DNA of 34,516 nt from Deltaproteobacteria bacterium (GTDB lineage: Bacteria; Desulfobacterota; Dissulfuribacteria; Dissulfuribacterales; JALVPX01): NCBI GenBank assembly GCA_027023445.1, contig JALVVK010000085.1, positions 1 to 34,516 on the forward strand. Reading direction: 5' to 3'. The notes under the pieces are model-generated. The model was not told the DNA's origin. It was given only the letters and a program-made list of their open reading frames with translations, and did not search any database. Made by a program: the position numbers and the translations under genes. Below are positions 10,472-23,694 of the stretch, in pieces (the first letter of the stretch is position 1; each line of letters opens with the position of its first letter).

Positions 10472-10541
10472 AGCTCAAAGCTGAAAGCTGAAAGTTGAAA
10501 GTTGAAAGTTGAAAGCTCAAAGCTGAAAGCTCAAAGCTCAA
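10472..10541 (+). repeat. Tandem 7-base repeat, ten units
   Basis: Ten consecutive copies of AGCTSAA or AGTTGAA with no spacers. Unit order: AGCTCAA, two AGCTGAA, three AGTTGAA, AGCTCAA, AGCTGAA, two AGCTCAA. This is a true short tandem array, not a CRISPR. Two more units in the same orientation lie at 10739-10752 and four inverted units at 10788-10815. Confidence 0.9.
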
Positions 10542-10602
10542 GGTAAAGATTAAAAAATTGTTTTCCATAAGTTACAATTCACCGTTTACCATTCAATATT
10601 TT

Positions 10603-10635
10603 CATGTCCTGGGGTGTGAAGCACCACTTGGCATG
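10603..10635 (+). repeat. CATG-bounded hairpin repeat, copy 1
   Basis: 33 bases beginning and ending in CATG, with inner hairpin GGTGTGAAGCACC (10614-10626). The same layout recurs at 15599, 22940 and 23580, all in the same orientation. In this copy the inner stem is GGTG/CACC, extendable by a T-G pair. It is preceded by TTTACCATTCAATATTTT, like the leader of the other copies. Confidence 0.8.
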
Positions 10636-10695
10636 CAGGTTTAGGTGAACAAAATGTCTGGCTGAATTCCGACTAATTCTTTATTTATTCGACCA

Positions 10696-10738
10696 AACTT
10701 TCATGAGATGGGGTTTGTCACCCCCTGACATGAAAGTT
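10696..10738. repeat. Hairpin with 10-base perfect arms, related to the CATG family
   Basis: AACTTTCATG (10696-10705) pairs perfectly with CATGAAAGTT (10729-10738). Inside, GGGG (10710-10713) can pair with CCCC (10721-10724). The outer arm is the same CATGAAAGTT module that ends copies 2 and 4 of the CATG family, but the inner core differs. Confidence 0.75.
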
Positions 10739-10815
10739 AGCTCAAAGCTCAAAGTCAGAAACTAAAAGCAAACATGGCTTCTTTGCCTTGAGCCTTGAGC
10801 TTTCAGCTTTGAGCT
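10739..10815. repeat. Inverted 7-base repeat units
   Basis: Two forward units AGCTCAA at 10739-10752 and four reverse units at 10788-10815 (TTGAGCC, TTGAGCT, TTCAGCT, TTGAGCT). The reverse units are complementary to the ten-unit array at 10472-10541. A long-range inverted repeat therefore encloses both hairpins at 10603 and 10696. Confidence 0.85.
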
Positions 10816-10833
10816 ATTTTCACGGTAAATCAT
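10811..10833 (+). repeat. 23-base dispersed repeat, copy 1
   Basis: This block contains TATTTTCACGGTAAATCAT. It matches the reverse complement of 23497-23519 at 22 of 23 positions. It overlaps the last inverted 7-base unit and the start of the 36-base repeat at 10831-10866, showing that the repeat modules are joined end to end. Confidence 0.75.
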
Positions 10834-10866
10834 TTTCTCAGGCATTCGAAGCGCATAATCCGGGAT
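10831..10866 (+). repeat. 36-base repeat in the manB leader, copy 1
   Basis: It begins CATTTTCTCAGGCA and ends GCATAATCCGGGAT. A second copy at 13494-13529 matches 33 of 36 positions. In both cases the repeat ends 12-17 bases before a start codon (manB here, dtd there), so it lies in the translation initiation region. Confidence 0.85.
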
Positions 10867-10878
10867 CAAGGAGGCATT

Positions 10879-12234
10879 GTGAACACGGAGATATTCAGAG
10901 AGTACGACATAAGAGGCAGGGTGGATACCGATCTGGATGAAAGCACCGTCTATGCCATAGGAAGGGCGTATGGCACCTTCCTGGCGCGGGAAGGGCTTTC
11001 CAGGGTTACAAGCGGAAGGGACGGCCGGGTTCATTCGGAGTCTATTCAGCAGACACTTATAAGGGGCATGCGTGCCGCGGGTTGCGACATTACAGACGTC
11101 GGGCTCTGCCCCACACCGCTGCTTTATTTTTCCATTGAACACCTGGGTACGGATGGCGGTATACAGGTAACCGGGAGCCACAATCCCCCGGAATACAACG
11201 GATTTAAGATGTGCGTCCGCAACGCCACCCTGTTTGGCGCGCAGATCCGGGAGATAAGACGGATTATTGAACAGGACGGCTATGCCGCGGGGGAGGGGAC
11301 GCTTGAATCCCGCCATATAATCGAGCCATATCTGCAGTACCTCAGGGGAAATATCCGCGTATCCCGGCCCTTGAAGGTGGTTGTTGACGCTGGGAACGGG
11401 GTTTCGGGCCTTGTCGCGCCACGGGCCTTTTCCGACCAGGGGTGTGATGTTGTTCCCCTGTACTGCGACGTGGACGGGACGTTTCCCAATCACCACCCGG
11501 ATCCCACAATTCCTGAAAATCTGCGGGATTTGAGGGACACGGTCCTGAAAACCGGGGCGGATTTCGGCGTGGCCTATGACGGTGACGGGGACAGGCTTGG
11601 TGTTGTGGATGAAAAGGGAGGTATCCTGTGGGGGGACCAGTTGCTCATGATCTTTGCCAGGGACATATTGAAGGATCATCCGGGAGCCGCCATCATAGGG
11701 GAGGTTAAATGCTCCCAGGTCATGTACCAGGATATCGAAAAACACGGTGGGCGGCCCGTCATGTGGAAGACCGGCCATTCACTTATAAAGCAGAAGATGC
11801 GGGAGGAAAATGCCCTGCTGGCAGGCGAGATGAGCGGGCATATGTTTTTCGCACACAGGTATTTCGGCTTTGATGACGGCCTTTACGCGTCTTTGCGTCT
11901 GGCTGAGATTCTGGCAAAGGGCACCATGCCTCTGTCCCGCTTTTTAGAGGATGTCCCGGAGACGTTTTCCACCCCGGAAATCAGGGTGGAGTGTCCTGAA
12001 CGGCTCAAGTTCAGCATAGTGGAGCGTATTCGTGACTGGTTCGCCCGGCGTCATGAAACCATAGACGTTGACGGTGTGCGGGTGGTTTTTCCCAATGGGT
12101 GGGGACTTATCCGCGCGTCTAACACCCAGCCCGTTCTGGTGCTTCGTTTTGAGGCGGACTCCCCTGAAAATCTGGAGAAAATCAGGGGCTTCATGGAAGG
12201 GAAGCTGAAAGAGGTAATGGATGGGGAAAGATAG
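10879..12234 (+). CDS. manB: Phosphomannomutase / phosphoglucomutase
   Basis: 451 residues, alpha-D-phosphohexomutase family (AlgC-like). It interconverts hexose 6- and 1-phosphates, supplying precursors for LPS and exopolysaccharide. Visible motifs: the N-terminal FREYDIRG signature; active-site serine loop VTGSHNPPEYNGFKM (about residues 96-110); metal-binding DGDGDRLG (about 234-241); sugar-binding GEMSGHMFF (about 315-323); and a C-terminal domain with the phosphate-contacting RASNTQPVLVLRFE. Start GTG 10879 with AAGGAGG 6 bases upstream. The leader is occupied by a 36-base repeat. The stop overlaps the start of the DciA-like gene by 14 bases, implying translational coupling. Mannose versus glucose preference cannot be read from sequence. 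Confidence 0.93.
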   Translation: MNTEIFREYDIRGRVDTDLDESTVYAIGRAYGTFLAREGLSRVTSGRDGRVHSESIQQTLIRGMRAAGCDITDVGLCPTPLLYFSIEHLGTDGGIQVTGSHNPPEYNGFKMCVRNATLFGAQIREIRRIIEQDGYAAGEGTLESRHIIEPYLQYLRGNIRVSRPLKVVVDAGNGVSGLVAPRAFSDQGCDVVPLYCDVDGTFPNHHPDPTIPENLRDLRDTVLKTGADFGVAYDGDGDRLGVVDEKGGILWGDQLLMIFARDILKDHPGAAIIGEVKCSQVMYQDIEKHGGRPVMWKTGHSLIKQKMREENALLAGEMSGHMFFAHRYFGFDDGLYASLRLAEILAKGTMPLSRFLEDVPETFSTPEIRVECPERLKFSIVERIRDWFARRHETIDVDGVRVVFPNGWGLIRASNTQPVLVLRFEADSPENLEKIRGFMEGKLKEVMDGER

Positions 12235-12712
12235 CCCCCGGGTATCCAGGCTCTCCCGCCTGATTTCTGACATGGCCTCCAGGCAGGGGTGGTCGCCCAG
12301 GCTGGCAAGGGCAAGGGCCTGGAAAATCTGGGAAGAGGTGGTAGGGGCGGAGATTGGCGCCCATTCCTGGCCATCGAGGATCATCAGGGGCGAGGTCCTG
12401 GAGGTGGCGGTCAGTGATTCGGTATGGATGCAGCAGATCAGTTTTCATAAGGCTTTCATCGTTCAGGAACTTAACTCAAGGTTACGAAGGGATGCCGCGT
12501 TAAAAGATATTCGCCTGGTGCTTGGGAATCCTGGGGAAACACGTTTCGGCAGCAAAAAAATAGGCTCTCATGTCCGGCATGAAAATATGAAGATAGACCG
12601 TGGGGAATGGGAACGGGCAAAGGACCTGTTTGCCTCCGTAAAAGACGATGAGCTGAGAGGCGCCCTTGTGCGCCTTTATTTGAAGTCGAGGATGCGCCAG
12701 AAGAGAGACTGA
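12221..12712 (+). CDS. DciA-like (DUF721) protein
   Basis: 163 residues. The N-terminal half matches the DUF721 pattern: a helix with SRLISDMASRQGW, then ARAWKIWEEVVGAEIGAHSWPSRI and GEVLEVAVSDSVWMQQISF. DciA proteins load or operate the replicative helicase DnaB in bacteria lacking DnaC/DnaI. The C-terminal 60 residues are Lys/Arg/Glu rich without a recognised fold. It overlaps manB by 14 bases and faces the TrmN6-like gene tail to tail with only 7 bases between, so no separate terminator fits. The family match is clear; the replication role in this organism is inferred. Confidence 0.8.
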   Translation: MGKDSPRVSRLSRLISDMASRQGWSPRLARARAWKIWEEVVGAEIGAHSWPSRIIRGEVLEVAVSDSVWMQQISFHKAFIVQELNSRLRRDAALKDIRLVLGNPGETRFGSKKIGSHVRHENMKIDRGEWERAKDLFASVKDDELRGALVRLYLKSRMRQKRD

Positions 12713-12719
12713 CACCAAA

Positions 12720-13409
12720 TCAGGATCTAATTTTTCCTCCGTTTTTCAGGATCAGGGGCTGCAGTACCCTAAGTTCCACGCCCGCGTCCCTGCACCCTTC
12801 CACCAGGATCATCCTTGCCTGGCTGTTTGCGTCGGGATGCACAAACCTGGCCCTTTTGGGTTCAAGGGACATTTCCCGCATTCCGGAGAACAGGCTTATG
12901 GAACGGTCTGCCGGGTATATAACCGCTATCCGTCCGCCCGGCCTGAGCGCGTATCTCGCGGCTTTCAGTATCCCGGTCAGAGTGGTAAGTATTTCGTGGC
13001 GCGCCAGGGCCTCCTGGGAGTTTATGCATATCCTTCCGGTGTCAGGGGGACGGTATGGAGGATTTGAGACCACATAATCAAAGGAGCCGGCAGGCAGAAT
13101 CCGCTGGATATTGTTCAGGTCTTCCCGGATTATTTTTATCTGTTCCTCCATGTGGTTTATCCGGATATTTTTCTCCGCCAGCCCTGCAAGCGGATGTTGG
13201 ATTTCAATGGCAGTGATGTGAATTTCTGGATATCTGTCTGCCAGGAGCATGGAAATAATGCCGCAGCCCGCTCCCAGCTCCAGCACCCTGTCCCTTTGCC
13301 TGGGACCGGCAAAGTCGGCCAGCAGGAGTGAGTCTATGGAAAAACGGTAACCGTCCGCAGGTTGCAGCACCTCAATATTTTCTATGGAGTCACGGGTGAT
13401 TCGATTCAT
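12720..13409 (-). CDS. TrmN6-like SAM-dependent methyltransferase
   Basis: 229 residues. The SAM motif VLELGAGCGIISMLLA (about residues 40-55) and the N6-adenine motif YVVSNPPYRPPD (about 110-121) place it with TrmN6/YfiC, which methylates N6 of adenosine 37 in tRNA1(Val). The opening HDxLLLADF-like segment (SIDSLLLADFA) is also typical. ATG 13409 lacks a clear Shine-Dalgarno, only an A-rich tract (AAAAAAAATG). Divergent from dtd, with 137 bases between that contain a 36-base repeat. Exact substrate (tRNA or another RNA/protein) is inferred from the family. Confidence 0.8.
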   Translation of the reverse strand: MNRITRDSIENIEVLQPADGYRFSIDSLLLADFAGPRQRDRVLELGAGCGIISMLLADRYPEIHITAIEIQHPLAGLAEKNIRINHMEEQIKIIREDLNNIQRILPAGSFDYVVSNPPYRPPDTGRICINSQEALARHEILTTLTGILKAARYALRPGGRIAVIYPADRSISLFSGMREMSLEPKRARFVHPDANSQARMILVEGCRDAGVELRVLQPLILKNGGKIRS

Positions 13410-13493
13410 TTTTTTTGTAAAATGATATATGGATGAATATTTCGTAGAAGGTATTTTTATCTGGATAAAACCACAGGCCTGAGGAGTTTAAAA

Positions 13494-13529
13494 CATTTTC
13501 TCAGGCAGTTGAAGTGCATAATCCGGGAT
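13494..13529 (+). repeat. 36-base repeat in the dtd leader, copy 2
   Basis: Matches 10831-10866 at 33 of 36 positions, same orientation, ending 17 bases before the dtd ATG. In this copy GCCTGAG at 13477-13483 and CTCAGGC at 13500-13506 form 7-base perfect inverted arms, a feature absent from copy 1. Confidence 0.85.
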
Positions 13530-13546
13530 AAGTGCGGGGGAATGTT

Positions 13547-14005
13547 ATGAGGGCTGTATTGCAGAGGGTGACAGAGGCCATGGTAAAGGTGGATGGAGCC
13601 GTTATCGGCAGTATCGGCGTTGGAGCCCTGATTTTCGTGGGGGTGGAACAGGGAGACACGGAGCGGGATGCCCTGTACCTGGCTGATAAGTGCGCGGGAC
13701 TCCGTATCTTTGAGGATGGCCATGGCAGGATGAACCTTTCCCTGGCCGAAGTGGGGGGCGGAGTACTCCTTGTTTCCCAGTTTACCCTGTGCGCGGATTG
13801 CAGGAAGGGCAGGCGTCCCTCATTTGTCAGGGCGGCCCGGCCTGAGAAGGCCGAGGCCCTCTATGAACTTGTGGGGCGGGAAATCCGCAAAAAAGGTATT
13901 GATGTGCAGACCGGAAGGTTCGGGGCGATGATGGACATACACCTGGTAAATCACGGCCCGGTAACAATATTGCTTGACAGCCGGGGAGCGCTGCAGGCGG
14001 GGTAA
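13547..14005 (+). CDS. dtd: D-aminoacyl-tRNA deacylase
   Basis: 152 residues from ATG 13547, which has GGGGGA 5 bases upstream; an in-frame GTG at 13532 would add five residues and is less likely. It hydrolyses D-aminoacyl-tRNA (and mischarged Gly-tRNA-Ala), recycling tRNA. Family motifs are intact: start [17 protein letters not shown], the active-site [17 protein letters not shown] (about residues 78-94) and the cross-subunit Gly-cisPro motif [11 protein letters not shown] near the C-terminus. Convergent with the universal stress gene, 15 bases apart. Confidence 0.95.
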
Positions 14006-14021
14006 GAGGTAATCCTCGCCT
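13995..14021. terminator. Possible bidirectional hairpin between dtd and the stress protein gene
   Basis: AGGCGGGG (13995-14002) can pair with CCTCGCCT (14014-14021), 8 pairs including one wobble. It spans both stop codons of two convergent genes. There is no T-run on either side, so if it ends transcription it is not a standard intrinsic terminator. Confidence 0.3.
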
Positions 14022-14488
14022 TAGCCCTCTGACCTGGAAATCCATCCAATGGGGATGCAAAGAACCGGGCATGGCAGAAGCCTTACCACCTTTTCTACGG
14101 TGCTTCCAAAGAAGATCTCATCGATCTTGCCCACACCCCTGCTTCCATATCCTCCCATAAGTACAAGGTCGGCCTGGAGTTCCCGGGCTTTCACAGCGAT
14201 TTCCTGGAAAGGGTTGCCATAGGAGACTATGGAATCCCTGACCCTGTCAACCAGGCCCGTTTCCCTTAAAAATTGTTTAAGGCCCTGTTTGGCCTGTTTG
14301 CCCAGCCGCTTTTGAACCTCTTCCGGAGGCTCGTCTGAGTATTGCGCGATTTTATCAGCGATGCGGGTGTCAACTACATGGATGAGTACCAGTTGAGCCT
14401 CCTTGGGAAACATCTGCTTGGCGAAATTGATCGCGCTTCTGGCGCATTCAGAAAAATCTACAGGAATCAGTACGGTGGAAATGTTCAT
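14021..14488 (-). CDS. Universal stress protein (UspA family)
   Basis: 155 residues from ATG 14488 (MNISTVLIPVDFSECA), preceded by GGGAGA. A longer frame from 14521 adds 11 residues without family support. The fold signature is present: the opening IPVDFS, a central LVLMGGYGSRGVGKIDEIFFGS matching the ATP-binding G-x2-G-x9-G-S pattern, and the end PCPVLCIP. Single-domain UspA proteins of this class often bind ATP and respond to starvation or envelope stress. It lies 39 bases downstream of the prmA-like gene on the same strand, so they may share a transcript. Confidence 0.9.
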   Translation of the reverse strand: MNISTVLIPVDFSECARSAINFAKQMFPKEAQLVLIHVVDTRIADKIAQYSDEPPEEVQKRLGKQAKQGLKQFLRETGLVDRVRDSIVSYGNPFQEIAVKARELQADLVLMGGYGSRGVGKIDEIFFGSTVEKVVRLLPCPVLCIPIGWISRSEG

Positions 14489-14527
14489 AAGGATTCTCCC
14501 TTTTATCTGCATAAAAATCAAATGTTT

Positions 14528-15391
14528 TTACTTTTGCAGCGCGATAGAGGTGATCCAGCCATCCTGTTCTTCTGACCGGATAACCTCAAAACCACAGGGA
14601 TGGATCAGCCGGGAGATCTCCTCCTGGTTGGCTGCTTTGAAGCCGCTCATTACCACGATTCCAGGAGGAGCCAATAACTTTACGATCTCCCTGAATGTTC
14701 TGATCATAACAGAGATTGTCAGGTTAGCCAAAGCCAGGTTCCATTTCCCCTGTGGCAGGTTCTGTAAGGGAGTGTTCGTCACGGAAACCGTGGTTTCCAG
14801 TCCGTTTTGGCGTATGTTTTCCCGGGCTACCCTTATCGACTCCGGGTCAATATCCAGGCACAACACGGATCGGGCGTTCATTTTCCCAGCGATAATACCC
14901 AGGATGCCGGTTCCCGTGCCTACGTCCAGGACATCCCTGCCGCGGACGAGGTCGTGTTCGTGGAGATATTCCAGGGCTTGAACACTGCCCCGGGTGGTGG
15001 GATGGCAACCATCGCCAAAGGCCCATCCCGGCCGCATAAAGATGAAATTTTCCCCGGATGCCGGATGCCTGTTCAGGGTGTCGGGCGGCGCCACCATCCA
15101 CGACCGACCGACCCTCACCGGCTGTCCGTTTCCCAGGGAGTTATAACGTGCAAGGGGCATGACTTCCCAGTCTGTATCAGTGTTGGCATGCCCTGGAAGG
15201 CATTGTAAAACACGGACCTGGAGTCTCCGTAGGCAGGAATCCCAGCGCCCGGCAGGTTCCCTTGTGACAAGGGTCAGTATCCCCGGAGGGCTGTTCAGGA
15301 TCTGCCAGGGGATATCTGAGCACAGGTCAGCCGGGATATTGACCGGACCTTTTCCTGAAAAACGGATTTGAACCACCAGTCCCTCATTCAT
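14528..15391 (-). CDS. prmA: Ribosomal protein L11 methyltransferase (PrmA-like)
   Basis: 287 residues. The SAM-binding motif VLDVGTGTGILGIIAGKMNA (about residues 154-173) and the preceding GWAFGDGCHPTTRGSVQALEYL block follow the PrmA layout of an N-terminal L11-binding domain plus C-terminal Rossmann domain. Canonical PrmA has AFGTGTHPTT and ANIL; here they read AFGDGCHPTT and LANL, so divergence in the catalytic loop is real and a related methyltransferase is possible. Start ATG 15391 has only a weak ribosome site. The 266 bases upstream hold a palindromic repeat element, separating it from the coiled-coil gene on the same strand. Confidence 0.75.
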   Translation of the reverse strand: MNEGLVVQIRFSGKGPVNIPADLCSDIPWQILNSPPGILTLVTREPAGRWDSCLRRLQVRVLQCLPGHANTDTDWEVMPLARYNSLGNGQPVRVGRSWMVAPPDTLNRHPASGENFIFMRPGWAFGDGCHPTTRGSVQALEYLHEHDLVRGRDVLDVGTGTGILGIIAGKMNARSVLCLDIDPESIRVARENIRQNGLETTVSVTNTPLQNLPQGKWNLALANLTISVMIRTFREIVKLLAPPGIVVMSGFKAANQEEISRLIHPCGFEVIRSEEQDGWITSIALQK

Positions 15392-15469
15392 GGCCTGTTA
15401 ACCTGAGATACACCGATTTTTATTCCTGGCTATTGCTTGTCATGCCGGGCGCGCCGGAAATGGCAGTTG

Positions 15470-15640
15470 CCGTGAAAATACAATGTTAAATGGTAAATTC
15501 TAAATGTTAGATTAAGGTGCTAAAGTTATTATATCTTCCTGAATTTTAAAAAAATGCTTACCACAATTTACAATTTAACATTTACCATTTAACATTTTCA
15601 TGCTCTGGGGTGCGAAACACCACTCGGCATGAAAGTTTGG
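15470..15640. repeat. Composite palindromic intergenic element
   Basis: Left arm 15482-15498 (AATGTTAAATGGTAAAT) and right arm 15580-15596 are perfect 17-base inverted repeats separated by 81 bases. The right arm is directly followed by a CATG hairpin copy and AAAGTTTGG. The left flank extends outward so that 15470-15498 is a perfect 29-base reverse complement of 21483-21511. No coding frame lies inside, so it resembles a small non-autonomous element; no target-site duplication could be established. Confidence 0.75.
15599..15631 (+). repeat. CATG-bounded hairpin repeat, copy 2
   Basis: 33 bases with outer CATGC/GCATG and inner GGTGCGAAACACC, where GGTG pairs with CACC. Same orientation as copies 1, 3 and 4. 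Followed by AAAGTTTGGG. Confidence 0.8.
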
Positions 15641-15657
15641 GATGATAGCATCCATTG

Positions 15658-16296
15658 TCACGAATGTTTATGGGAAATACGCTTTGATAGTTTCTTGATA
15701 TCGTTATCCAGCGAACGGGCCCCTTTTTCCACCTCCTTGAATTGATCGAGTTTTATGGCGTGTACCAGGTCCGCCCATCGGATGGTGAGTTCATTGACGC
15801 GTCTTGTGAGTTCGGCATCTTCTTTTGGAATCATATTTTTCAGCTGATCGAGCCGTTTTTTCAGCCTTTCGGTGATCCTGCGTGCCTTGGCAATAGAATC
15901 TGCTCTGGCCTTCTCAGAGATCTCCCTTGCCCTGTTTGCCGCCTCAGCCGCTTTTCTGGCCAGAAATTCCGCCTTCAGATACGATTTTTGCCTGGCATAT
16001 TCCTTTGCCCTGCTGAGCATGTTCAGTGCCTCATTCCAGGCATCTGGCGCCAGCCTTTGTGCGCTTTGCCGTTCGGCCTGTTTTATTGAAGATATTGCCT
16101 CTTCGTATCTATGTCTCCAGCGGGCCAGTTGCTTTGCCCCCGGGCTCTTTTCTCTTATCCTGGCCAGCTCTTTTTTAATATCTTCCCTGAGACTTGTTGG
16201 AGAAGGAAGGGTGAAGCCTGTACAAAATGTCAATAAGGCGGCGGCTATTCCCGCCGCAAGTATCCGGAGCCGCATGCGGGATCCTTGATCTTTCAT
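15658..16296 (-). CDS. Exported coiled-coil protein (DUF4398-like)
   Basis: 212 residues. An N-terminal hydrophobic segment (residues 9-28, LRILAAGIAAALLTFCTGF) looks like a signal peptide or anchor; the Cys is preceded by Phe, so a standard lipobox is not met. The rest is almost entirely helical and charged: residues 85-135 (ALNMLSRAKEYARQKSYLKA, then AEFLARKAAEAANRAREISEK) resemble the DUF4398 helical repeat, followed by a long Lys/Glu/Arg coiled coil to the C-terminus. Start ATG 16296 has GAGAAG 5 bases before it, and the upstream M23 peptidase gene ends 7 bases away. Co-expression with a LytM-type peptidase suggests an envelope role, possibly an adaptor; this is inferred. Confidence 0.75.
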   Translation of the reverse strand: MKDQGSRMRLRILAAGIAAALLTFCTGFTLPSPTSLREDIKKELARIREKSPGAKQLARWRHRYEEAISSIKQAERQSAQRLAPDAWNEALNMLSRAKEYARQKSYLKAEFLARKAAEAANRAREISEKARADSIAKARRITERLKKRLDQLKNMIPKEDAELTRRVNELTIRWADLVHAIKLDQFKEVEKGARSLDNDIKKLSKRISHKHS

Positions 16297-16303
16297 TATC
16301 TTC

Positions 16304-17644
16304 TCACATGTTGGCCAGGATATGGGTCTGTATCCATCTCCCGTCCCACCATTCTTCCGGGTTGACGAAGACCCCGTTGACTAACATGCCGTAATGGAGA
16401 TGATCCCCGCCCGCAAGGCCTGTTTCCCCTGTCCTGCCTATGATCTGTCCCTTTGTTACCTGGTCTCCCTTGTTGACAAAAATGGCGCTCAGGTGCGAAT
16501 AGGTACTGAAGAGGCCCAGGCCATGGTCGATAATCACCGTGTTGCCGTAGATGCCAAGATAGTCGGCAAACACCACAATGCCGTTGTTGCCCGCGGGCAC
16601 CTTCGCGTGCCTGATTGAGGCAAGGTCAACACCCATGTGGTAGGTCGTGCCTATCTTCCTGCCCTTGTAGATATATGTGCGGTAGTCAGCAAAATTGGCC
16701 CTCTGGGCAGATCGCGGCAGACGCAAAAAACGGCCCTTCCATAACATTTTTTTGGATCCGTTTGAGCACAATTCCTTGAACTTTTTGTTGTCCTCTGCGC
16801 GCAGTTTGGTGTTGACCTGCAGGAAAACCTGTAGAAGGTTTCCCTTGAGATTGGCATATCTTAGCTTGAAATCCGGCATTTTTCGTTCAAGAAAGGTGTC
16901 GGTGATTCGTATGGTGTCAAAGACCTTCTTTTTATGCATGATCCTGAAGGGAACTGAGACCTGTCCTATATTCCCCGCGCTGTCAACCGCTTCTACTATA
17001 AATGTTTTGGGCCTGGGGTCATTGTACGGTATTGCCACCATGGCTACATATGACTGCTTTCCTCCCATCGGGTCCGGACAGGCCGGGAAAAAGATATTGT
17101 CTATGCGCACCCCTGTTTTTTCAGGAATTTCACTGACCTTGTACGAGACGAGACCTGAGCCCCCGACCGCAATGTTATGCGTAAGGCTTTTCAGCGCGAT
17201 TCTTGGGGGATTGGTATCAATACGCAGGGGAATGTTTAATATCTGTTGATTTCCCTTGAACCCTCTTCTGAGAGTGGAATCTGTTGCCACGATCCTGAGA
17301 GTGGCCTTTCCCTGTCCAAGTCCGAGGGACAGGGGTTTGATAATCCAGGATTCCCTGGTTTCCTTTACTCCGGATCCCATCCACCACCGTGTCGCCGGAT
17401 AGTTTTTTGAGGCCACGGGCACCTCCTTGTGTCCCTGGATGAGATAGACTGAAATGGATTTGATGCCGCTTCTGTTGTCTTTTGCCAGTACATTGAGCCT
17501 GTATTCCCGGCCAATCACCTTAGGTTCCGGGCTGATCTGAAGGGTCGGAGGCGTTCCTTCCATGAGGAAATAGGAGATAAAACAGACGCCGGCTATTACA
17601 GCCAGCGCCAGGATGGAGATAAGAAAACCGAATAATTTTTTCAT
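16304..17644 (-). CDS. M23 family (LytM-type) metallopeptidase with N-terminal Ig-like region
   Basis: 446 residues. A single N-terminal membrane helix (about residues 5-27) is followed by a beta-rich region (30-300) with Ig-like phrases (RLNVLAKDNRSGIKSISVYL, FIVEAVDSAGNIGQ), then a C-terminal M23 domain. Zinc ligands of the LytM family are visible: H336 and D340 in HMGVDLA, and H417 in DHLHYG; H384 (TYSHLS) and H415 fit the catalytic positions. It is therefore likely an active peptidoglycan endopeptidase facing the periplasm, or an activator-type relative. GGAGTT precedes ATG 17644. It sits between pth (32 bases upstream) and the coiled-coil gene (7 bases downstream). Confidence 0.9.
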   Translation of the reverse strand: MKKLFGFLISILALAVIAGVCFISYFLMEGTPPTLQISPEPKVIGREYRLNVLAKDNRSGIKSISVYLIQGHKEVPVASKNYPATRWWMGSGVKETRESWIIKPLSLGLGQGKATLRIVATDSTLRRGFKGNQQILNIPLRIDTNPPRIALKSLTHNIAVGGSGLVSYKVSEIPEKTGVRIDNIFFPACPDPMGGKQSYVAMVAIPYNDPRPKTFIVEAVDSAGNIGQVSVPFRIMHKKKVFDTIRITDTFLERKMPDFKLRYANLKGNLLQVFLQVNTKLRAEDNKKFKELCSNGSKKMLWKGRFLRLPRSAQRANFADYRTYIYKGRKIGTTYHMGVDLASIRHAKVPAGNNGIVVFADYLGIYGNTVIIDHGLGLFSTYSHLSAIFVNKGDQVTKGQIIGRTGETGLAGGDHLHYGMLVNGVFVNPEEWWDGRWIQTHILANM

Positions 17645-17676
17645 GACGTAAACTCCATGGCAGGCTTAAACCCGGA

Positions 17677-18258
17677 TTATGCTGTGCGCCCGTTAAACTC
17701 GTTCATCGCAGCATCTATGCCTTCTTTTAGATAACACTCAATGCCCCTGAGGCAAAGTGTTTCAACAGCTTTTTTGACAGGTATCTCAGAGGAAGAAAAT
17801 TTGGACAGCACATAACGGTCCACTGGCATAGGGCCCTGGGGCCGGTTGATTCCTATTTTCAATCGTGGAAAGTCACTGGAACCCAGGCTTTGGATAATGG
17901 ATCTGACGCCGTTGTGCCCACCGTGTCCACCTGAACGCATGAACCTGATCCGGCCCAGGGGAATATCAATATCGTCGTGGATAACTATCAGGGCTTCAAG
18001 ATGGGTTTTATAGAATCTGGCTACAGGAGCCACCGCGTCCCCGCTTCTGTTCATGTAGGTCAGGGGCTTGATGAGGACTACGTTGCGGCCATACATTGAA
18101 CCCGGCGCCGCGGCGTATGGGGCGGCGCCAGTCTTTGTCCTGAATGTAAGGTCGTGCTCAGACGCTATCAGGTCCACAACATCAAATCCGATGTTATGCC
18201 TGGTGCCTGCATACCTGTCCCCCGGGTTGCCCAGCCCCACTATCAATGTCTTAGACAA
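17677..18258 (-). CDS. pth: Peptidyl-tRNA hydrolase
   Basis: 193 residues. It releases tRNA from peptidyl-tRNA dropped by ribosomes. Catalytic and binding residues align with the E. coli enzyme: N11 (LGNPG), H21 (TRHNIGFD), N70 (PLTYMNRSG), D95 (HDDIDIPLG) and N116 (GHGGHNGVRS). The start is TTG 18258, supported by AGAGGA 5 bases upstream and by the usual short MxxxLIVGLGNPG beginning. The adjacent rplY-pth order, 77 bases apart, is widespread in proteobacteria. Confidence 0.96.
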   Translation of the reverse strand: MSKTLIVGLGNPGDRYAGTRHNIGFDVVDLIASEHDLTFRTKTGAAPYAAAPGSMYGRNVVLIKPLTYMNRSGDAVAPVARFYKTHLEALIVIHDDIDIPLGRIRFMRSGGHGGHNGVRSIIQSLGSSDFPRLKIGINRPQGPMPVDRYVLSKFSSSEIPVKKAVETLCLRGIECYLKEGIDAAMNEFNGRTA

Positions 18259-18335
18259 CAGTGTCCTCTGTCTGGTTTTGGCAAGGGAGCGAGATTAGTA
18301 CTTCAGCCTGCCGGTTCACATAAGGTGATATCGCA

Positions 18336-18980
18336 TCAGGCCTCTTCGGATTCAGGTTCCGGTCCGGCCTCTTCTCCTTCTTCACCTTCTTCGGCTTCTT
18401 CTTCTGCCTGTTTGGCCTCCGGACCCACAATGGTCAGCAGAGTGGTGTCCGGGTCGTTGAGGAAACGGACGCCCTCAGGCGGGGTGATATCTTTTACGTG
18501 CATTGCCTCGCCTATGCCGAGCTCAGTTACATCAATCTGAATTTCTTTTGGAATAGCCAGGGGCAGGCATGAAATTTCCAAGCCTCTCTGGATGATTTCA
18601 AGCACTCCGCCTTCCTCCACACCCTTTGCCTTGCCCGTGACCGCTATGGGTACGTTAACAGTGACCTCTTCATCCACATAGATCTTGTAGAAGTCAATGT
18701 GGCGTATTTCATCGTTGACAGGATGTCTCTGAAGTTCCTTGATCAGAGTCAGGTGTTTGCTTGTCTGACCATTGTCGCGGAGGTTGAGGGAAAAAAGAAG
18801 CTGTTCCCCTTTTGCCGCAATCAGCAGTTTATTTAATTCATGCCGGTTAACGAAAATGGAAATCGTGTCGGTTTTCGGACCATATAAAACTCCCGGAACC
18901 TGGCCGTCTTTTCTGAGTTTTCTCGCAACTCCCTTGCCGGAGTCGGTTCTTATCTGGGCATCTATTTCAACCTGTTTCAT
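18336..18980 (-). CDS. rplY: 50S ribosomal protein L25/Ctc
   Basis: 214 residues, the long Ctc form: an N-terminal 5S-rRNA-binding domain (VARKLRKDGQVPGVLYGP, ELQRHPVNDEIRHIDFYKI) plus the C-terminal TL5 domain (EVTVNVPIAVTGKAKGVEEG, CLPLAIPKEIQIDVTELGIG). It ends in a strongly acidic tail of about 25 residues (EEEAEEGEEGEEAG), common in this group. It follows prs in the same operon, 48 bases away. Confidence 0.96.
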   Translation of the reverse strand: MKQVEIDAQIRTDSGKGVARKLRKDGQVPGVLYGPKTDTISIFVNRHELNKLLIAAKGEQLLFSLNLRDNGQTSKHLTLIKELQRHPVNDEIRHIDFYKIYVDEEVTVNVPIAVTGKAKGVEEGGVLEIIQRGLEISCLPLAIPKEIQIDVTELGIGEAMHVKDITPPEGVRFLNDPDTTLLTIVGPEAKQAEEEAEEGEEGEEAGPEPESEEA

Positions 18981-19028
18981 TAATCAAACTCCCTAACATT
19001 ATTGTTGTAAAAAAAGAGGTAAATATCT

Positions 19029-19973
19029 TTAAACAAATAAGGAACTTACAGAATCATCATTATGGATGCGGCTTATTGCCTCCCCAAGCAGATCAGCGAC
19101 AGACAGGACCTTTATCTTATCCACCTTCTGCGCTTCCTCGGATAAAGGTATGGTGTTTGCCACAACAAGGGACTTCAGTACCGACTCCCTGACCCGTTCA
19201 ACCGCCGGGCCTGAGAGGACCGGATGGGTGGCGCAGCCGTGGACCTCCACAGCTCCGTGTTCCTTGAGTGCCCTGGCAGCATGACATAATGTGCCCGCCG
19301 TGTCCACCATGTCGTCCAGGATTACAGCGGTTTTCCCCTTGACATCGCCTATGATATTCATCACCTGGGATTCATTCGGGCGTTCCCTGCGCTTGTCAAT
19401 GATGGCAAGTCCTGCGCCCAGACGTTTGGCAAAGGCCCTGGTCCTTTCCACGCCTCCCGCGTCCGGTGACACCATGACCACATCCCCGTTTATGTGTTTT
19501 TTAAGGTATTTCAGCAGCACGGGGGCCGCGAAGAGGTGATCCACCGGTATGCTGAAAAAGCCCTGGATCTGCCCGGCATGAAGATCCATTGCAAGCAAAC
19601 GGCGTGCTCCTACCGTGGTGATTATGTCAGCAACCAGCTTGGCGCTGATCGGTACCCTCGGAGCGGCCTTCCTGTCCTGCCTGGCATATCCATAGTAGGG
19701 CAGGACAGCTGTTATGCGTCTTGAGGACGCCCTTCTCAGGGCATCCACCATGATAAGCAGTTCCATGAGATTATGGTTGACCGGCGGGCATGTGGGCTGT
19801 ATGACAAAGACATCCGCTCCACGGACATTTTCGCCTATTTCGACAAATATTTCTCCGTCGCTGAAGGTACGTACGGATGCCCTGCCCAGGGGTTGATCCA
19901 GATAATCACATATGGCCTCGGCCAGGGCCGGGTTTGCATTTCCTGTAAAGATTTTAATGGTATCTAATGGCAT
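19029..19973 (-). CDS. prs: Ribose-phosphate pyrophosphokinase
   Basis: 314 residues. It makes PRPP from ribose 5-phosphate and ATP for nucleotide, His and Trp synthesis. Motifs: [19 protein letters not shown] (about 38-56), catalytic-loop and ATP residues in [17 protein letters not shown], metal-binding [11 protein letters not shown] (about 129-139), and the PRPP loop [12 protein letters not shown] (about 217-228). Full length compared with the usual 310-320. ATG 19973 is 24 bases downstream of tRNA-Gln, in the order ispE, tRNA-Gln, prs, rplY, pth also seen in Pseudomonas. Confidence 0.97.
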
Positions 19974-19997
19974 TTAAACTGTTCCGCTCCTTAAACC

Positions 19998-20072
19998 TGG
20001 CTGGGGTGGGAGGATTCGAACCTCCGAATGCGGGTTCCAAAGACCCGTGTCTTACCACTTGACGACACCCCA
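19998..20072 (-). tRNA. tRNA-Gln (UUG)
   Basis: The minus strand folds as a full cloverleaf: acceptor TGGGGTG/CACCCCA, anticodon stem CGGGT/ACCCG with loop CTTTGGA giving anticodon TTG (20038-20040), and T-arm GGAGG-TTCGAAT-CCTCC. The discriminator base G and the CCA end (19998-20000) are encoded. It lies 8 bases after the ispE stop and 24 before prs, so it is presumably processed from the operon transcript. Confidence 0.97.
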
Positions 20073-20080
20073 ACCGTTTT

Positions 20081-20935
20081 TTATTCAAAACCCCTGACCA
20101 CGAATTCAGAAAAAGGCCTTCTTGCGCCTTTCTGCCTGGTCATGGCGTTACTTGCGCGGATGGCAGCCTGCCTGTTATTAAAAACGCCGAATACGGTTGA
20201 ACCACTGCCTGACATGAGAGCCGTCTCCGCGCCAAGATCCAACAGAGCATTTTTTATTTCCAGGATCTCTGGATACCGGGGAATCACTGCCTTTTCAAGG
20301 TCATTCATCCACATCGCGGTCTCGTGGCCGTGACCAGCGCTAAAAATAGTTTTGTGACACGGGGTTGTCAACTCCAAATTGCTGTAGGCCCAGGCGGTTT
20401 TTATGGCAAAACCGGGCCATATCAGCAGGAACCAGGACGATGTGCCTGCGTGTGGCTCAAGGATTTCTCCTACTCCCCTGCCAATGGCGGCAGGGGCATC
20501 CAGGATAAAAAAAGGTACATCAGCGCCAAGCCCGAGGCCAAGCTTCATAAGCTCATCCCCGGAAAGGGGATTTGAGGCAAGATCGTTCAGACAGGTTATT
20601 ACCGCCGCCGCGTCTGAGCTGCCCCCGCCTAATCCGGCTCCCGTGGGGATGTTTTTATGCAGGCGCAACTTTACATCAAGGTCCAGGCCGGTTTTTCCCA
20701 GGAAGGCCCTGGCTGCCTTGCAGGCAAGGTTGTCAGGGCCGTGCGGGACCGGTATGCCCGTGCATTCCAGTTGAACCTGCCCCGTGCCTTTCCCGGTTTC
20801 AACCTGGAGCTTGTCAAAAAGCGTTATTTTCTGGAACAGCGTGTGGAGCTCATGGTATCCGTCAGGGCGTCTGCATATCACCCTCAGGAAAAGATTCAAC
20901 TTCGCAGGGGCCTTTACCGGGACGGAACTATTCAA
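20081..20935 (-). CDS. ispE: 4-(cytidine-5'-diphospho)-2-C-methyl-D-erythritol kinase
   Basis: 284 residues, GHMP kinase family; phosphorylates CDP-methylerythritol in the non-mevalonate isoprenoid pathway. Motifs: KAPAKLNLFLRVICRRPDGYHEL near the start, the ATP loop PTGAGLGGGSSDAAAVI (about 94-110) and the C-terminal LMSGSGSTVFGVF. The start is TTG 20935, 4 bases before the DUF1844 stop, suggesting translational coupling. CTP made by pyrG feeds the step before this one in the same pathway. Confidence 0.95.
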   Translation of the reverse strand: MNSSVPVKAPAKLNLFLRVICRRPDGYHELHTLFQKITLFDKLQVETGKGTGQVQLECTGIPVPHGPDNLACKAARAFLGKTGLDLDVKLRLHKNIPTGAGLGGGSSDAAAVITCLNDLASNPLSGDELMKLGLGLGADVPFFILDAPAAIGRGVGEILEPHAGTSSWFLLIWPGFAIKTAWAYSNLELTTPCHKTIFSAGHGHETAMWMNDLEKAVIPRYPEILEIKNALLDLGAETALMSGSGSTVFGVFNNRQAAIRASNAMTRQKGARRPFSEFVVRGFE

Positions 20936-20939
20936 TGTC

Positions 20940-21212
20940 TTACTTGCCTGACGCCTTTACATATTTCAGCCGAAGATCAAATATAATGTGTTCCAGCAGG
21001 GATTTTTCGTCATCCGTGAGGTTCCCTCTGGTCTTTTCCTGAAGCATGGCCAGGGTGTCTATGGCGTGCTGTGCCATGGTCAGATCCTTTTTCTTTTCTC
21101 CGCTTTCAGGTGAATTCATCTCTCCCAGATGAACAAGGGCAGATGTGTTGATGGAAAGGACAAGGGTGGCAAAGGTGACTTCCGGAAGAGGTATCCCGCG
21201 TTTTTTATCCAT
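20940..21212 (-). CDS. DUF1844 domain protein
   Basis: 90 residues from ATG 21212 (MDKKRGIPLPEVTFATLVLS). AGGAG lies 8 bases upstream; an in-frame TTG two codons earlier is too close to that site. The conserved DUF1844 pattern is present: PEVTFATLVLSINTSALVHLG, then MAQHAIDTLAMLQEKTRGNL and the ending DLRLKYV. The family is small, common in deltaproteobacteria and without an assigned biochemical function. Its gene precedes ispE in an apparently translationally coupled unit. Confidence 0.85.
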   Translation of the reverse strand: MDKKRGIPLPEVTFATLVLSINTSALVHLGEMNSPESGEKKKDLTMAQHAIDTLAMLQEKTRGNLTDDEKSLLEHIIFDLRLKYVKASGK

Positions 21213-21237
21213 GATCAAGCTCCTGTATTGTCAGAAT

Positions 21238-21321
21238 TTAATGCCGGAGATTTTTCTGCTCCCGTACCTGACAATAATCCTGGATCACGCGGCTGCCAAG
21301 TTTGTTTGCCCTTTTAGCCAT
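21238..21321 (-). CDS. Possible 27-residue leader or small protein
   Basis: Frame from ATG 21321 to TAA 21238, reading MAKRANKLGSRVIQDYC and ending VREQKNLRH. GGCGGG lies 3 bases before the ATG, closer than usual. It is basic and directly precedes DUF1844 with 25 bases between. No family recognised; it could be a chance frame in a leader. Confidence 0.25.
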   Translation of the reverse strand: MAKRANKLGSRVIQDYCQVREQKNLRH

Positions 21322-21382
21322 GGACCCGCCATAGACAATTTGGCGGCCATCGTCAGGGCTGCCAGATAGCCCAGGGCAAGAA

Positions 21383-21511
21383 AATGCTAAATGATAAATG
21401 ACGAATTGTAAATTGTGGCAAACAAATTTTTGTTAGATTCAAAAAGATACAACAACCTGGTACCTTAATTTATCATTACAGAATTTACCATTTAACATTG
21501 TATTTTCACGG
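21383..21511. repeat. Palindromic intergenic element, second copy of the long arm
   Basis: The left arm 21383-21399 (AATGCTAAATGATAAAT) pairs with the right arm 21483-21499 (ATTTACCATTTAACATT) with two mismatches, 83 bases apart. This copy has no CATG hairpin after it. The right end 21483-21511 is a perfect 29-base reverse complement of 15470-15498. It occupies much of the 370-base gap between the divergent DUF1844 and paaK-like genes; nothing else was recognised there besides the small frame and the weak promoter. Confidence 0.75.
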
Positions 21512-21514
21512 GGG

Positions 21515-21543
21515 TTGACATGCATATCCCTGTGCCGTAAATC
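21515..21543 (+). promoter_or_regulatory. Weak sigma-70 promoter candidate for paaK
   Basis: TTGACA (21515-21520), 17 bases, then TAAATC (21538-21543). The -35 is perfect but the -10 matches only 3 of 6 positions. It lies 48 bases before the paaK-like start and directly after the palindromic repeat. Confidence 0.3.
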
Positions 21544-21591
21544 CTTTTCATGGCTCATGAGTTATATTAACCGGTAAGGGGGAACTTCTGT

Positions 21592-22902
21592 ATGTGGAAT
21601 TCCATAGAAGGCGCGTTCAGGGAGGAGCTGGAGGCCCTTCAATCCAGGAGGCTGAGGCAGACCGTTGAGAGGGTCTATCATCTTGTGCCGTTTTACAGGG
21701 AAAAGCTGGATGCCCTGGGTATTAAACCCCGGGATATCAGGTCCGTTAAAGATCTTTCCCGCCTGCCCTTCACCTTGAAGCAGGATCTAAGGGATCATTA
21801 TCCCTTCGGGCTTTTTGCCGTTCCCATGGAGCAGGTGATCCGTATTCATTCATCGTCCGGCACTACCGGCAAGCCCACGGTGGTGGGATACACCGAGCAT
21901 GACTTGAAGGTGTGGAACGAGGTCATGGCAAGAACAATGTCCATGGGCAACGTGGGACCGGGCGATGTTGTGCATAACGCCTATGGCTACGGCCTTTTTA
22001 CCGGAGGCCTTGGTTTCCATTATGGCGGAGAGGCGGTTGGCGCCTCGGTGGTTCCATCCAGTGGAGGTTTTACAAAACGCCAGCTTCTGCTTATGAAGGA
22101 TTTCGGCGCTACGGCGCTGTGCTGTACCCCTTCTTTTGCCCTTCATCTTTCCGAGGTGGCCAGGGAAGAAGGGTATGATCTTCACAACGATTTCAAGCTC
22201 AAGGCCGGCTTCTTCGGCGCAGAACCCGCGTCTGAAGGGCTCAGGCAGGCCCTTAGGGATGCCTGGAACATACAGTACGTAGAGGCCTACGGGTTGAGTG
22301 AAATTATCGGGCCGGGGGTCGCGGCTACCTGTCCAGAGGGCAGGCTTCATGTCTTTGAGGATCATTTTATTCCGGAGATCATTGATCCTGAAACAGGGGA
22401 GGTGCTTTCGGACGGCGAGGAGGGTGAACTGGTGATTACAACAGTTACGAAACAGGCCCTTCCTCTTCTTCGTTACCGCACCAAGGACATTACCAGGCTT
22501 TACCGAGAGCCCTGCGCCTGTGGAAGGACCCTGGTGGGCATGGATTCCATAAAGGGACGCAGTGACGACATGCTTATTGTAAATGGCGTGAACGTGTTTC
22601 CGTCCCAGGTAGAGCATGTTCTTACCAAGGTGGAGGGCACTACTCCCAATTATGTTATTGTGGTAGACAAAAAGGGAGTGCTGGATAAGCTTGAGGTCTG
22701 GGTTGAGATGGACGAGAGCACGTTTGCCGATGGCATAGGCGCTCTGGAGACCTTGAAGCGAAGGCTTGAAACAGAGATGCTTAATGACCTTTATATAAAC
22801 GTGAGGGTAAAACTGGTGGAGCCCAGGACCCTTGAGAGAAGCATGGGCAAGGCAAAGCGGATCATGGACAGGCGTGAGAGCGAGAGCCTGGAACGGTCAT
22901 GA
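21592..22902 (+). CDS. Phenylacetate-CoA ligase family protein (PaaK-like)
   Basis: 436 residues, adenylate-forming family. The phosphate loop [13 protein letters not shown] spans residues 86-98; [16 protein letters not shown] (about 235-250) and the [17 protein letters not shown] / [20 protein letters not shown] hinge region (about 300-345) are those of PaaK. It activates an aryl acid such as phenylacetate to its CoA thioester via an acyl-adenylate. ATG 21592 has AAGGGGGAA upstream. The next gene encodes a tandem ACT protein. This pairing is common in anaerobic deltaproteobacteria and archaea, often with indolepyruvate oxidoreductase genes, which are not seen here. Substrate is not determined by sequence. 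Confidence 0.88.
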
Positions 22903-22939
22903 TTTTTTTTGCCGTTCACCATGTATCATTCAACATTTT

Positions 22940-22972
22940 CATGCGTTGGGGTGCGAAGCGCCACTCAGCATG
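22940..22972 (+). repeat. CATG-bounded hairpin repeat, copy 3
   Basis: 33 bases with outer CATGC/GCATG and inner GGTGCGAAGCGCC (GGTGC pairs with GCGCC through one G-T wobble). Lies in the 131-base gap between the paaK-like and ACT genes, same orientation as the other copies. Confidence 0.8.
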
Positions 22973-23033
22973 AAGGTTTGGTTCAGGGTAAACATATTAC
23001 CGGCAGTGATAGTGGTGACAAAGGATCTTAGAT

Positions 23034-23477
23034 ATGAGAAATAAGTACGCAGTAAAGCAATTATCCGTATTCCTGGAGAACCGTAAGGGAAGGTTACTTG
23101 AGGTAACGGAAACCCTAAAAAATGCGGGAGTCAATATCCGGGCGCTGGCCATGGCCGAATCAGCGGAATTCGGTATCCTGAGACTGGTGGTCAATAATCC
23201 TGAAAAGGCTAAGAACGCCCTTTCAACAGGGGGGTTTACCGTAAAGGAGCAGGATGTTTTTGCCGTTGAGGTGGAGGACAGGCCAGGGAGTTTCTTTCAG
23301 GTGGTCAAGGCCCTGGCGCACTCAGATATCAATATTGACTATACATATGCCTTTGTTGGGAATTCCAACAGGGCGGTGCTGATATTCAAGGTGCCTGACG
23401 AGATGCTTAACAGGGCGCTTGAGTCTCTGGACAGGAGCGGCATAGGGCTTGTTGAACCCTTGTTTTTCTACGATTAA
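23034..23477 (+). CDS. Tandem ACT-domain protein
   Basis: 147 residues made of two ACT domains: residues 7-70 (QLSVFLENRKGRLLEVTETL, then NVNIRALA-type strand IRALAMAESAEFGILRLVV) and 75-140 (DVFAVEVEDRPGSFFQVVKA, INIDYTYAFV). ACT domains bind amino acids for allosteric control; there is no attached enzyme, so this is probably a free regulatory subunit. It follows the paaK-like gene and is bracketed by two same-orientation copies of the CATG hairpin (22940 and 23580). Function of the free form is unknown. Confidence 0.87.
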   Translation: MRNKYAVKQLSVFLENRKGRLLEVTETLKNAGVNIRALAMAESAEFGILRLVVNNPEKAKNALSTGGFTVKEQDVFAVEVEDRPGSFFQVVKALAHSDINIDYTYAFVGNSNRAVLIFKVPDEMLNRALESLDRSGIGLVEPLFFYD

Positions 23478-23496
23478 TGGGTAGTTGGTTGTTTTC

Positions 23497-23519
23497 ATGA
23501 TTTACCGTGAAAGTAGCTC
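23497..23519 (-). repeat. 23-base dispersed repeat, copy 2 (inverted)
   Basis: Reverse complement of 10811-10833 with one mismatch in 23. It directly abuts and partly overlaps the nested hairpin at 23516-23572. Confidence 0.75.
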
Positions 23520-23572
23520 ATGGTTTAAGAAACAAGGTGATTTTTTGTGACTATCACCTATGAGCCATGAGC
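23516..23572. repeat. Nested double hairpin between the ACT gene and pyrG
   Basis: Outer arms GCTCATGG (23516-23523) and CCATGAGC (23565-23572), perfect. Inner arms AGGTGAT (23535-23541) and ATCACCT (23553-23559), perfect, with a T-rich loop. The T-run is inside the loop, not after the stem, so a standard terminator is unlikely. Confidence 0.75.
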
Positions 23573-23573
23573 C

Positions 23574-23618
23574 AACTTTCATGCTCCGGGGTGCGAAGTG
23601 CCACTTGGCATGAAAGTT
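23574..23618 (+). repeat. CATG-bounded hairpin repeat, copy 4 with long outer stem
   Basis: AACTTTCATGC (23574-23584) pairs perfectly with GCATGAAAGTT (23608-23618), 11 pairs, enclosing inner GGTGCGAAGTGCC. This copy has the longest stem of the family and follows the nested hairpin by one base, within the 217-base gap upstream of pyrG. Confidence 0.85.
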
Positions 23619-23694
23619 TGGGTAGACCGACACCCTGATCATGAAATTTTCTATTGTTAATGTCCTGTGGGATTGAGATAAGATAGGAAGATCG

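Follow-up and report, generated by a model that had tools for sequence, protein, structure and literature searches.

A dispersed family of palindromic, probably mobile intergenic DNA elements in an uncultured Dissulfuribacterales bacterium

Introduction

In BOX elements of Streptococcus pneumoniae, which are intergenic repeats of modular build, a variable middle lies between fixed ends, and ERIC elements are, to our knowledge, largely without an active mobiliser. Repetitive extragenic palindromic (REP) sequences and REPINs are short imperfect intergenic palindromes that are found in tens of copies and sometimes as inverted pairs (PMC2817692, PMC3116915, PMC3733652), and REPs prefer unidirectional and convergent regions (PMC3733652). 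Here, we analyse a 34,516-nt stretch of DNA, hereafter the window, from a Deltaproteobacteria bacterium of the order Dissulfuribacterales (assembly GCA_027023445.1, contig JALVVK010000085.1), in which a first-pass annotation had pointed out four copies of a 33-nt hairpin with CATG ends. We show that each of these hairpins forms the 3′ part of a larger folded DNA repeat of about 110-175 bp. This repeat represents an apparently undescribed miniature element family that occupies a visible share of the intergenic DNA in an uncultured Desulfobacterota-like group, and that appears to cross family borders with recurrent use of target sites.

The family resembles REPs and REPINs in all the above traits of copy number, position and pairing, as well as in its scale and in the logic of hairpins formed by single-stranded DNA (ssDNA). 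It differs from them in having neither a GTAG/CGTC tag nor a REP-associated tyrosine transposase (RAYT) gene that it flanks, in its long and short hairpins set in a fixed order, and in avoiding the convergent gene pairs that REPs favour. With ERIC, Correia/NEMIS and similar repeats likened to miniature inverted-repeat transposable elements (MITEs; reviewed in PMC10969869), it shares a length of about 100-170 bp and a palindromic, intergenic and non-coding nature, while its sequence is unrelated and its arms, made of units of ~7 bp, differ between subfamilies that have common ends. In contrast to BOX elements (PMC3049150), the middle is here a heptad-unit palindrome of which whole arms are exchanged. 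Finally, like non-autonomous elements derived from the IS200/IS605 insertion sequences (IS), the family has a hairpin near each end, a T-rich target and no clear terminal inverted repeats; on the other hand, the resident IS200-like elements have different ends and, as far as seen, insert into one subtype of the family (type B, described below) rather than mobilise it. We found no matching family in the literature on heptamer palindromes, MITEs and REPs, a survey in which most subscription journals were outside coverage.

Results

The four 33-nt hairpins are exact at positions 10603, 15599, 22940 and 23580, all on the + strand. As annotated, they are intergenic, they all have CATG ends and GGGGTG-Y-GAA-...-CCAC cores, and copies 2 to 4 are directly followed by AARGTTTGG. 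Their pattern is matched four times in the window and never in 100 dinucleotide shuffles. In the 2.24-Mb genome, the exact pattern has 13 matches (9 on one strand and 4 on the other, with 0 in a reversed control), and the core has 53 when one mismatch is allowed, against 2 in the control. The annotation had proposed a genome-wide count with a covariance model; further copies indeed exist, since a model built from 27 hairpin copies gave at least 49 matches. The 33-nt unit that it had delimited is, however, too small: conserved sequence continues for 70-140 nt on the upstream side and for ~5 nt on the downstream side, and base pairing extends beyond the 33-mer (CCAACTTTCATG.../...CATGAAAGTTTGG).

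Alignment of the flanks gives the order of the complete element as TTT/ACCGTGAAAATA, then a long hairpin in which units of ~7 bp make up the arms, and last the CTTTCATG hairpin CATGAAAG/TTTRG, where slashes mark the element boundaries; the 5′ end, TTT/ACCGTGAAAATA, is fixed. Four common arm types (A, B, C1 and C2) have the same ends. Type-A arms consist of (AGCTCAT)n paired with ATGAGCC and vary in length between copies by 7-nt steps, type-B arms pair AATGTTAAATGGTAAATTCTG... with ...CACCATTTATCATTCAACATT, and those of types C1 and C2 pair AGCTCAA/AGCTGAA with TTTGAGC. In C1 elements, an unrelated hairpin, CATGTCAGGGGGTGACAARCCCCATGTCATG, (hairpin type 2) occupies the slot of the CATG hairpin described above (hairpin type 1). 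Most A and C types measure 111-137 bp between both ends in the genome of origin and in genomes G040 and G042, and in these three genomes no gene or coding version was found enclosed by both ends. A few end-bounded elements reach about 266-269 bp, some of them with a nested palindrome in the loop. At two loci of G040 (L329 and L337), the loop of longer C1 elements contains a nested palindrome (CTTTGCGTTCTTGGCGTCCTT...) that looks like the insertion of another repeat.

Profile searches of 766 kb retrieved 93 copies (55 B, 26 A and 12 C), a number that does not give a genome-wide density, the 766 kb being sampled stretches picked for containing hairpins. As ssDNA, whole elements of the window fold into the long hairpin and the CATG hairpin with z-scores of -4.93 (B), -4.38 (A) and -6.10 (C1). 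The isolated 33-mer of copy 4 folds no better than its shuffles; thus, the outer flanks matter for folding.

The differences between the inner stems had been taken as compensatory changes that maintain pairing. This proposal is refuted by our data: in copy 2 the fifth pair is broken (C.A), the remaining differences are one-sided wobbles, and no covariation is found genome-wide. Indeed, when pairing was counted on the structure ((((((.((((((((...))))).))))))))) over 47 distinct hairpins, 87.4% of the cells were paired, against 88.0% after shuffling, one pair was altered on both sides where 2.7 were expected, and covariation reached 0.113, against 0.121 in shuffled sets. Single changes in the inner stem break pairing in 36 cases and keep it in 18, with no two-sided change. 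The inner-stem counts and the genome-wide covariation both reveal stem changes by which pairing is not maintained, the outcome that the annotation itself had named as refuting its proposal. Covariation terms are also unfavourable for the long stems (+0.57 for B and +0.28 for A), and no compensatory covariation was found in hairpin type 2. Complementarity is preserved only between whole arm or hairpin types and not between the stem changes of copies, and the invariant or nearly invariant parts are the element ends and the outer TTTCATG/CATGAAA stem. What holds of the dispersed and unrecognised folding family is thus its existence, with further copies, the folding of whole elements and Y1 transposases in the genome, while the evidence from compensatory change fails. 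The annotation is probably also right that a folded form serves in the replication or the recognition of the element. Palindrome families should accordingly not be taken for covarying RNAs, the conserved pairing being here that of the outer stem and ends only. At locus L251 (G000 C133, in the genome of origin), the hairpin CATGCTAAGCGGTGCCTTGTGCCGCTTAGCATG comes close to a perfect palindrome (DNA fold z -6.96); its origin would be accounted for by template switching from arm to arm, known as quasipalindrome correction.

The flanks of 34 elements were joined and searched against the other stretches for empty sites. When joined, the flanks of the C1 element of the window match at 85-90% many empty copies of another repeat, M (AATGATTTTGG). 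This element (10693-10828, - strand) is inserted in M at AATGATTT/TGG, beside copy 1; its left junction is common to L214, L224 and L256, and the M junction AATGATTT/ is used by four elements in all, which are of the C1 and A types. Likewise, the flanks of L010 rejoin in M at CACCTTTTAGG, a site that is also occupied in L003 and L007. The insertion sites are T-rich (TTT/TRG) and lie within pre-existing sequence, as illustrated by an occupied site, ATGATTT...TTTGG, and its empty counterpart, ATGATTTTGG. TTT flanks type-A copies on both sides, and the left flanks of type-B copies are GTT. Precise ends, multiple dispersed copies and empty sites, which define MITEs in the broad sense, are all observed, and the mobility of the family is well supported. 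A pattern of 5′ truncation reminiscent of retrotransposition (25 copies versus 15) was dropped, as stretches chosen by their 3′ hairpin are biased in this respect. Repeat M itself is 255 bp long, with CCCGGATTATGC...GCATAATCCGGG ends, and is present in dozens of copies (84 end matches in the genome), with end matches in the window at 10853-10864, 13516-13527 and 17671-17682.

Within the order, strong matches to the family are found in G032 and in G022, which both belong to another family (genus g18). Diverged copies with the same architecture are present in G040, G042, G039, G031 and G018, with genera of family f10 among the carriers, and G091 contains something similar. No matches were found in the sister genus g2 (G001 and G002), no further strong carrier appeared among 345 genomes across the phylum under stricter filters, and searches of phages, plasmids and IMG/VR, as well as an exact-pattern scan of GTDB contigs, gave no match. 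Over 142 nt, a type-A copy of G032 shares 93.7% identity with a copy of the genome of origin, and a C1 copy of G040, a member of another family, is 91.5% identical to the C1 element of the window. In the same genera, gene segments that adjoin copies (L264, L268 and L334) are 69-76% identical. Since the non-coding copies are more alike than genes, these sequence comparisons point to a transfer of elements between genera and families. The CTP synthase encoded in the window shares no more than 70% identity with those of named Desulfobacterota-type genomes, which places the host in an uncultured lineage close to this phylum.

In the window, the hairpin of copy 1 (10603-10635, +, CATG type 1) makes up the 3′ module of a C/B chimera (10472-10642, +) in which a type-C heptad 5′ arm (AGCTSAA units, 10472-10541) is followed by a type-B 3′ arm and the hairpin. 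The chimera lies within the 255-bp repeat M, which also hosts the full, inverted C1 element with the second hairpin type, a different CATG hairpin (CATGTCAGGGGGTGACAAACCCCATCTCATG), at 10702-10732; the right end of M (terminal inverted repeat ...GCATAATCCGGG) is at 10826-10866 (+). Copy 2 (15599-15631) belongs to a full type-B element (15467-15640, +) with the 5′ end TTGCCGTGAAAATA, copy 3 (22940-22972) to a 5′-truncated type-B element (22912-22981, +), and copy 4 (23580-23612) to a full type-A element with AGCTCAT/ATGAGCC arms (23502-23621, +) upstream of pyrG. The four annotated copies are real, yet the count was incomplete: in addition to the inverted C1 element, a profile search recovered a 3′-truncated type-B element without CATG hairpin on the minus strand (21359-21513), which had been missed.

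With gene calls from a simple open reading frame scorer, 88 of 93 copies are intergenic. Convergent regions are under-used (4/89 copies versus 32/239 background regions, p=0.027), and between tandem gene pairs the orientation shows no significant preference (29 versus 20, p=0.25).

A search for a RAYT or other IS200/IS605-type gene had also been suggested. The genome of origin carries four Y1_Tnp genes, two RAYT-like (C1:67940 and C103:5804) and two IS200-like, none of which has the CATG hairpin as its own end; no CATG hairpins flank the two RAYT-like genes, and at C107 and C59, the ends of the IS200-like elements are not those of the palindromic family. The IS200 at C107 was rejected as an autonomous partner, as it sits inserted within a B element. 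Neither a reverse transcriptase (PF00078) nor an IS91-type Y2 transposase (PF04986) was found in this genome. In G031, two CATG hairpins lie at most 300 bp from a RAYT-like gene. The group of this gene has GGGGACAGGC terminal repeats, which fit the TIRYT terminal consensus GGGGWSAS (PMC3733652), and the downstream CATG copy lies inside such a repeat; its homologues in G018, G041 and G014 have no CATG hairpins. The RAYT-like gene at C103:5804 (L182) has different hairpins of its own (TTACCGCTTTCAGCCCAAAGCCGAAATCGGTAA and a similar copy downstream), likely a REP pair of a different family.

Discussion

We propose, with a probability of about 0.75, that these elements form a non-autonomous palindromic family of mobile DNA (MITE/REP-like) that is non-coding and mobilised in trans. 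This proposal is based on the occupied and empty sites in M, the recurrent use of targets, the patchy distribution and the high identity to distant copies, together with the architecture and ends that independent intergenic copies have in common, their uniform full length, the folding of whole elements and the nearly invariant outer stem. Several observations weigh against it. No transposase was found that carries the element ends, and the carriers G040 (34 matches) and G022 are without any Y1_Tnp. The orientation of the copies does not follow GC skew (55/93, p=0.10), a bias that lagging-strand HUH elements might show. No clean target-site duplication is legible, a duplication being indistinguishable from none because the insertions fall in T-runs. 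Moreover, G032 is a draft bin with 89% completeness and 3% contamination, and part of the similarity could be due to contamination.

If the family is mobile, its two hairpins and the conserved TGAAA/TTTCATG/CATGAAAG ends would be recognised by a trans-acting transposase. The hairpin ends suggest that recognition would most plausibly occur on ssDNA during replication (HUH/Y1-like), a step that we put forward only tentatively. The mobilising enzyme may be gone from some present hosts. After insertion, the sequences of the arms and inner hairpin would drift, and slippage by 7 nt and, now and then, template switching between arms would remodel them, with selection probably acting on the outer stem and ends.

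A DDE insertion sequence reduced to a miniature form, with TTT as a 3-bp target duplication and ACCG...AAAG as ends, would account for the TTT on both sides of type-A copies and for the site occupied in ATGATTT...TTTGG and empty in ATGATTTTGG. We regard this as unlikely: there are no terminal inverted repeats, the 5′ ACCGTGAAAATA not recurring in inverted form in the 3′ CATGAAAGTTTGG, the left flanks of type-B copies are GTT instead of TTT, and no longer, transposase-bearing copy was found in the genome of origin, G040 and G042. A REP/REPIN system, in which a resident RAYT would mobilise the hairpin as its REP, is rather improbable. While the four RAYT-like and IS200-like genes of the genome, the G031 gene with its nearby CATG hairpins and an inverted pair in the window (10603, + and 10702, -) are in line with this idea, the resident RAYTs are unflanked by the hairpin, and the G031 gene is of the TIRYT type, with homologues in three genomes devoid of CATG hairpins. 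In place of a GTAG/CGTC tag, the foot of the hairpin is CTTTCATG/TTTTCATG in 47-49 aligned copies. The lack of Y1_Tnp in G040 and G022, the depletion in convergent regions, unlike REPs, and stem changes that are not complementary between copies also speak against it.

Amplification of palindromic intergenic sequence by recombination or gene conversion, without a transposase, would leave chimeras such as that at 10472-10642, interchangeable arms, truncations and 7-nt length steps, all of which we see; the precise ends, the recurrent M junctions and the near-identical copies in other families nevertheless suggest a specific insertion reaction and make this explanation quite improbable. A same-strand gene follows many copies at a distance of 0-100 bp and convergent regions are avoided, as might be the case for an RNA structure, cis-regulatory or part of a leader, that has spread ahead of genes. 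Such a role is very improbable in view of the lack of a significant orientation preference between tandem genes, the absence of covariation, the many truncated copies and the absence of any Rfam match to the copies, the sole Rfam match in the window being a tRNA.

Beyond the mobile family proposed here, it is conceivable, though doubtful, that the intergenic heptad arrays of these genomes are the stems of one mobile two-hairpin class, in which unrelated palindromes could replace the arms and hairpins without loss of the ends and architecture, and which would depend on an undescribed non-RAYT enzyme. Once found, the enzyme would test whether hairpins alone, of exchangeable sequence, suffice for mobilisation.

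Type-B elements are also associated with other repeats. IS200-like elements are located in type-B arms at least three times in the genome of origin (C107, L184 1064-1844; C25:3851, L222; C59:244, L048), and a preference of IS200-like elements for insertion into type-B palindromes is possible. Another dispersed repeat, TTTTATCCGAAAATGCATTTTTTGAT...AGCCATGGACACACAAGGACATACATGGACAAAAA (L012, L039, L066, L214 and L266), often adjoins type-B elements and is also present in G031.

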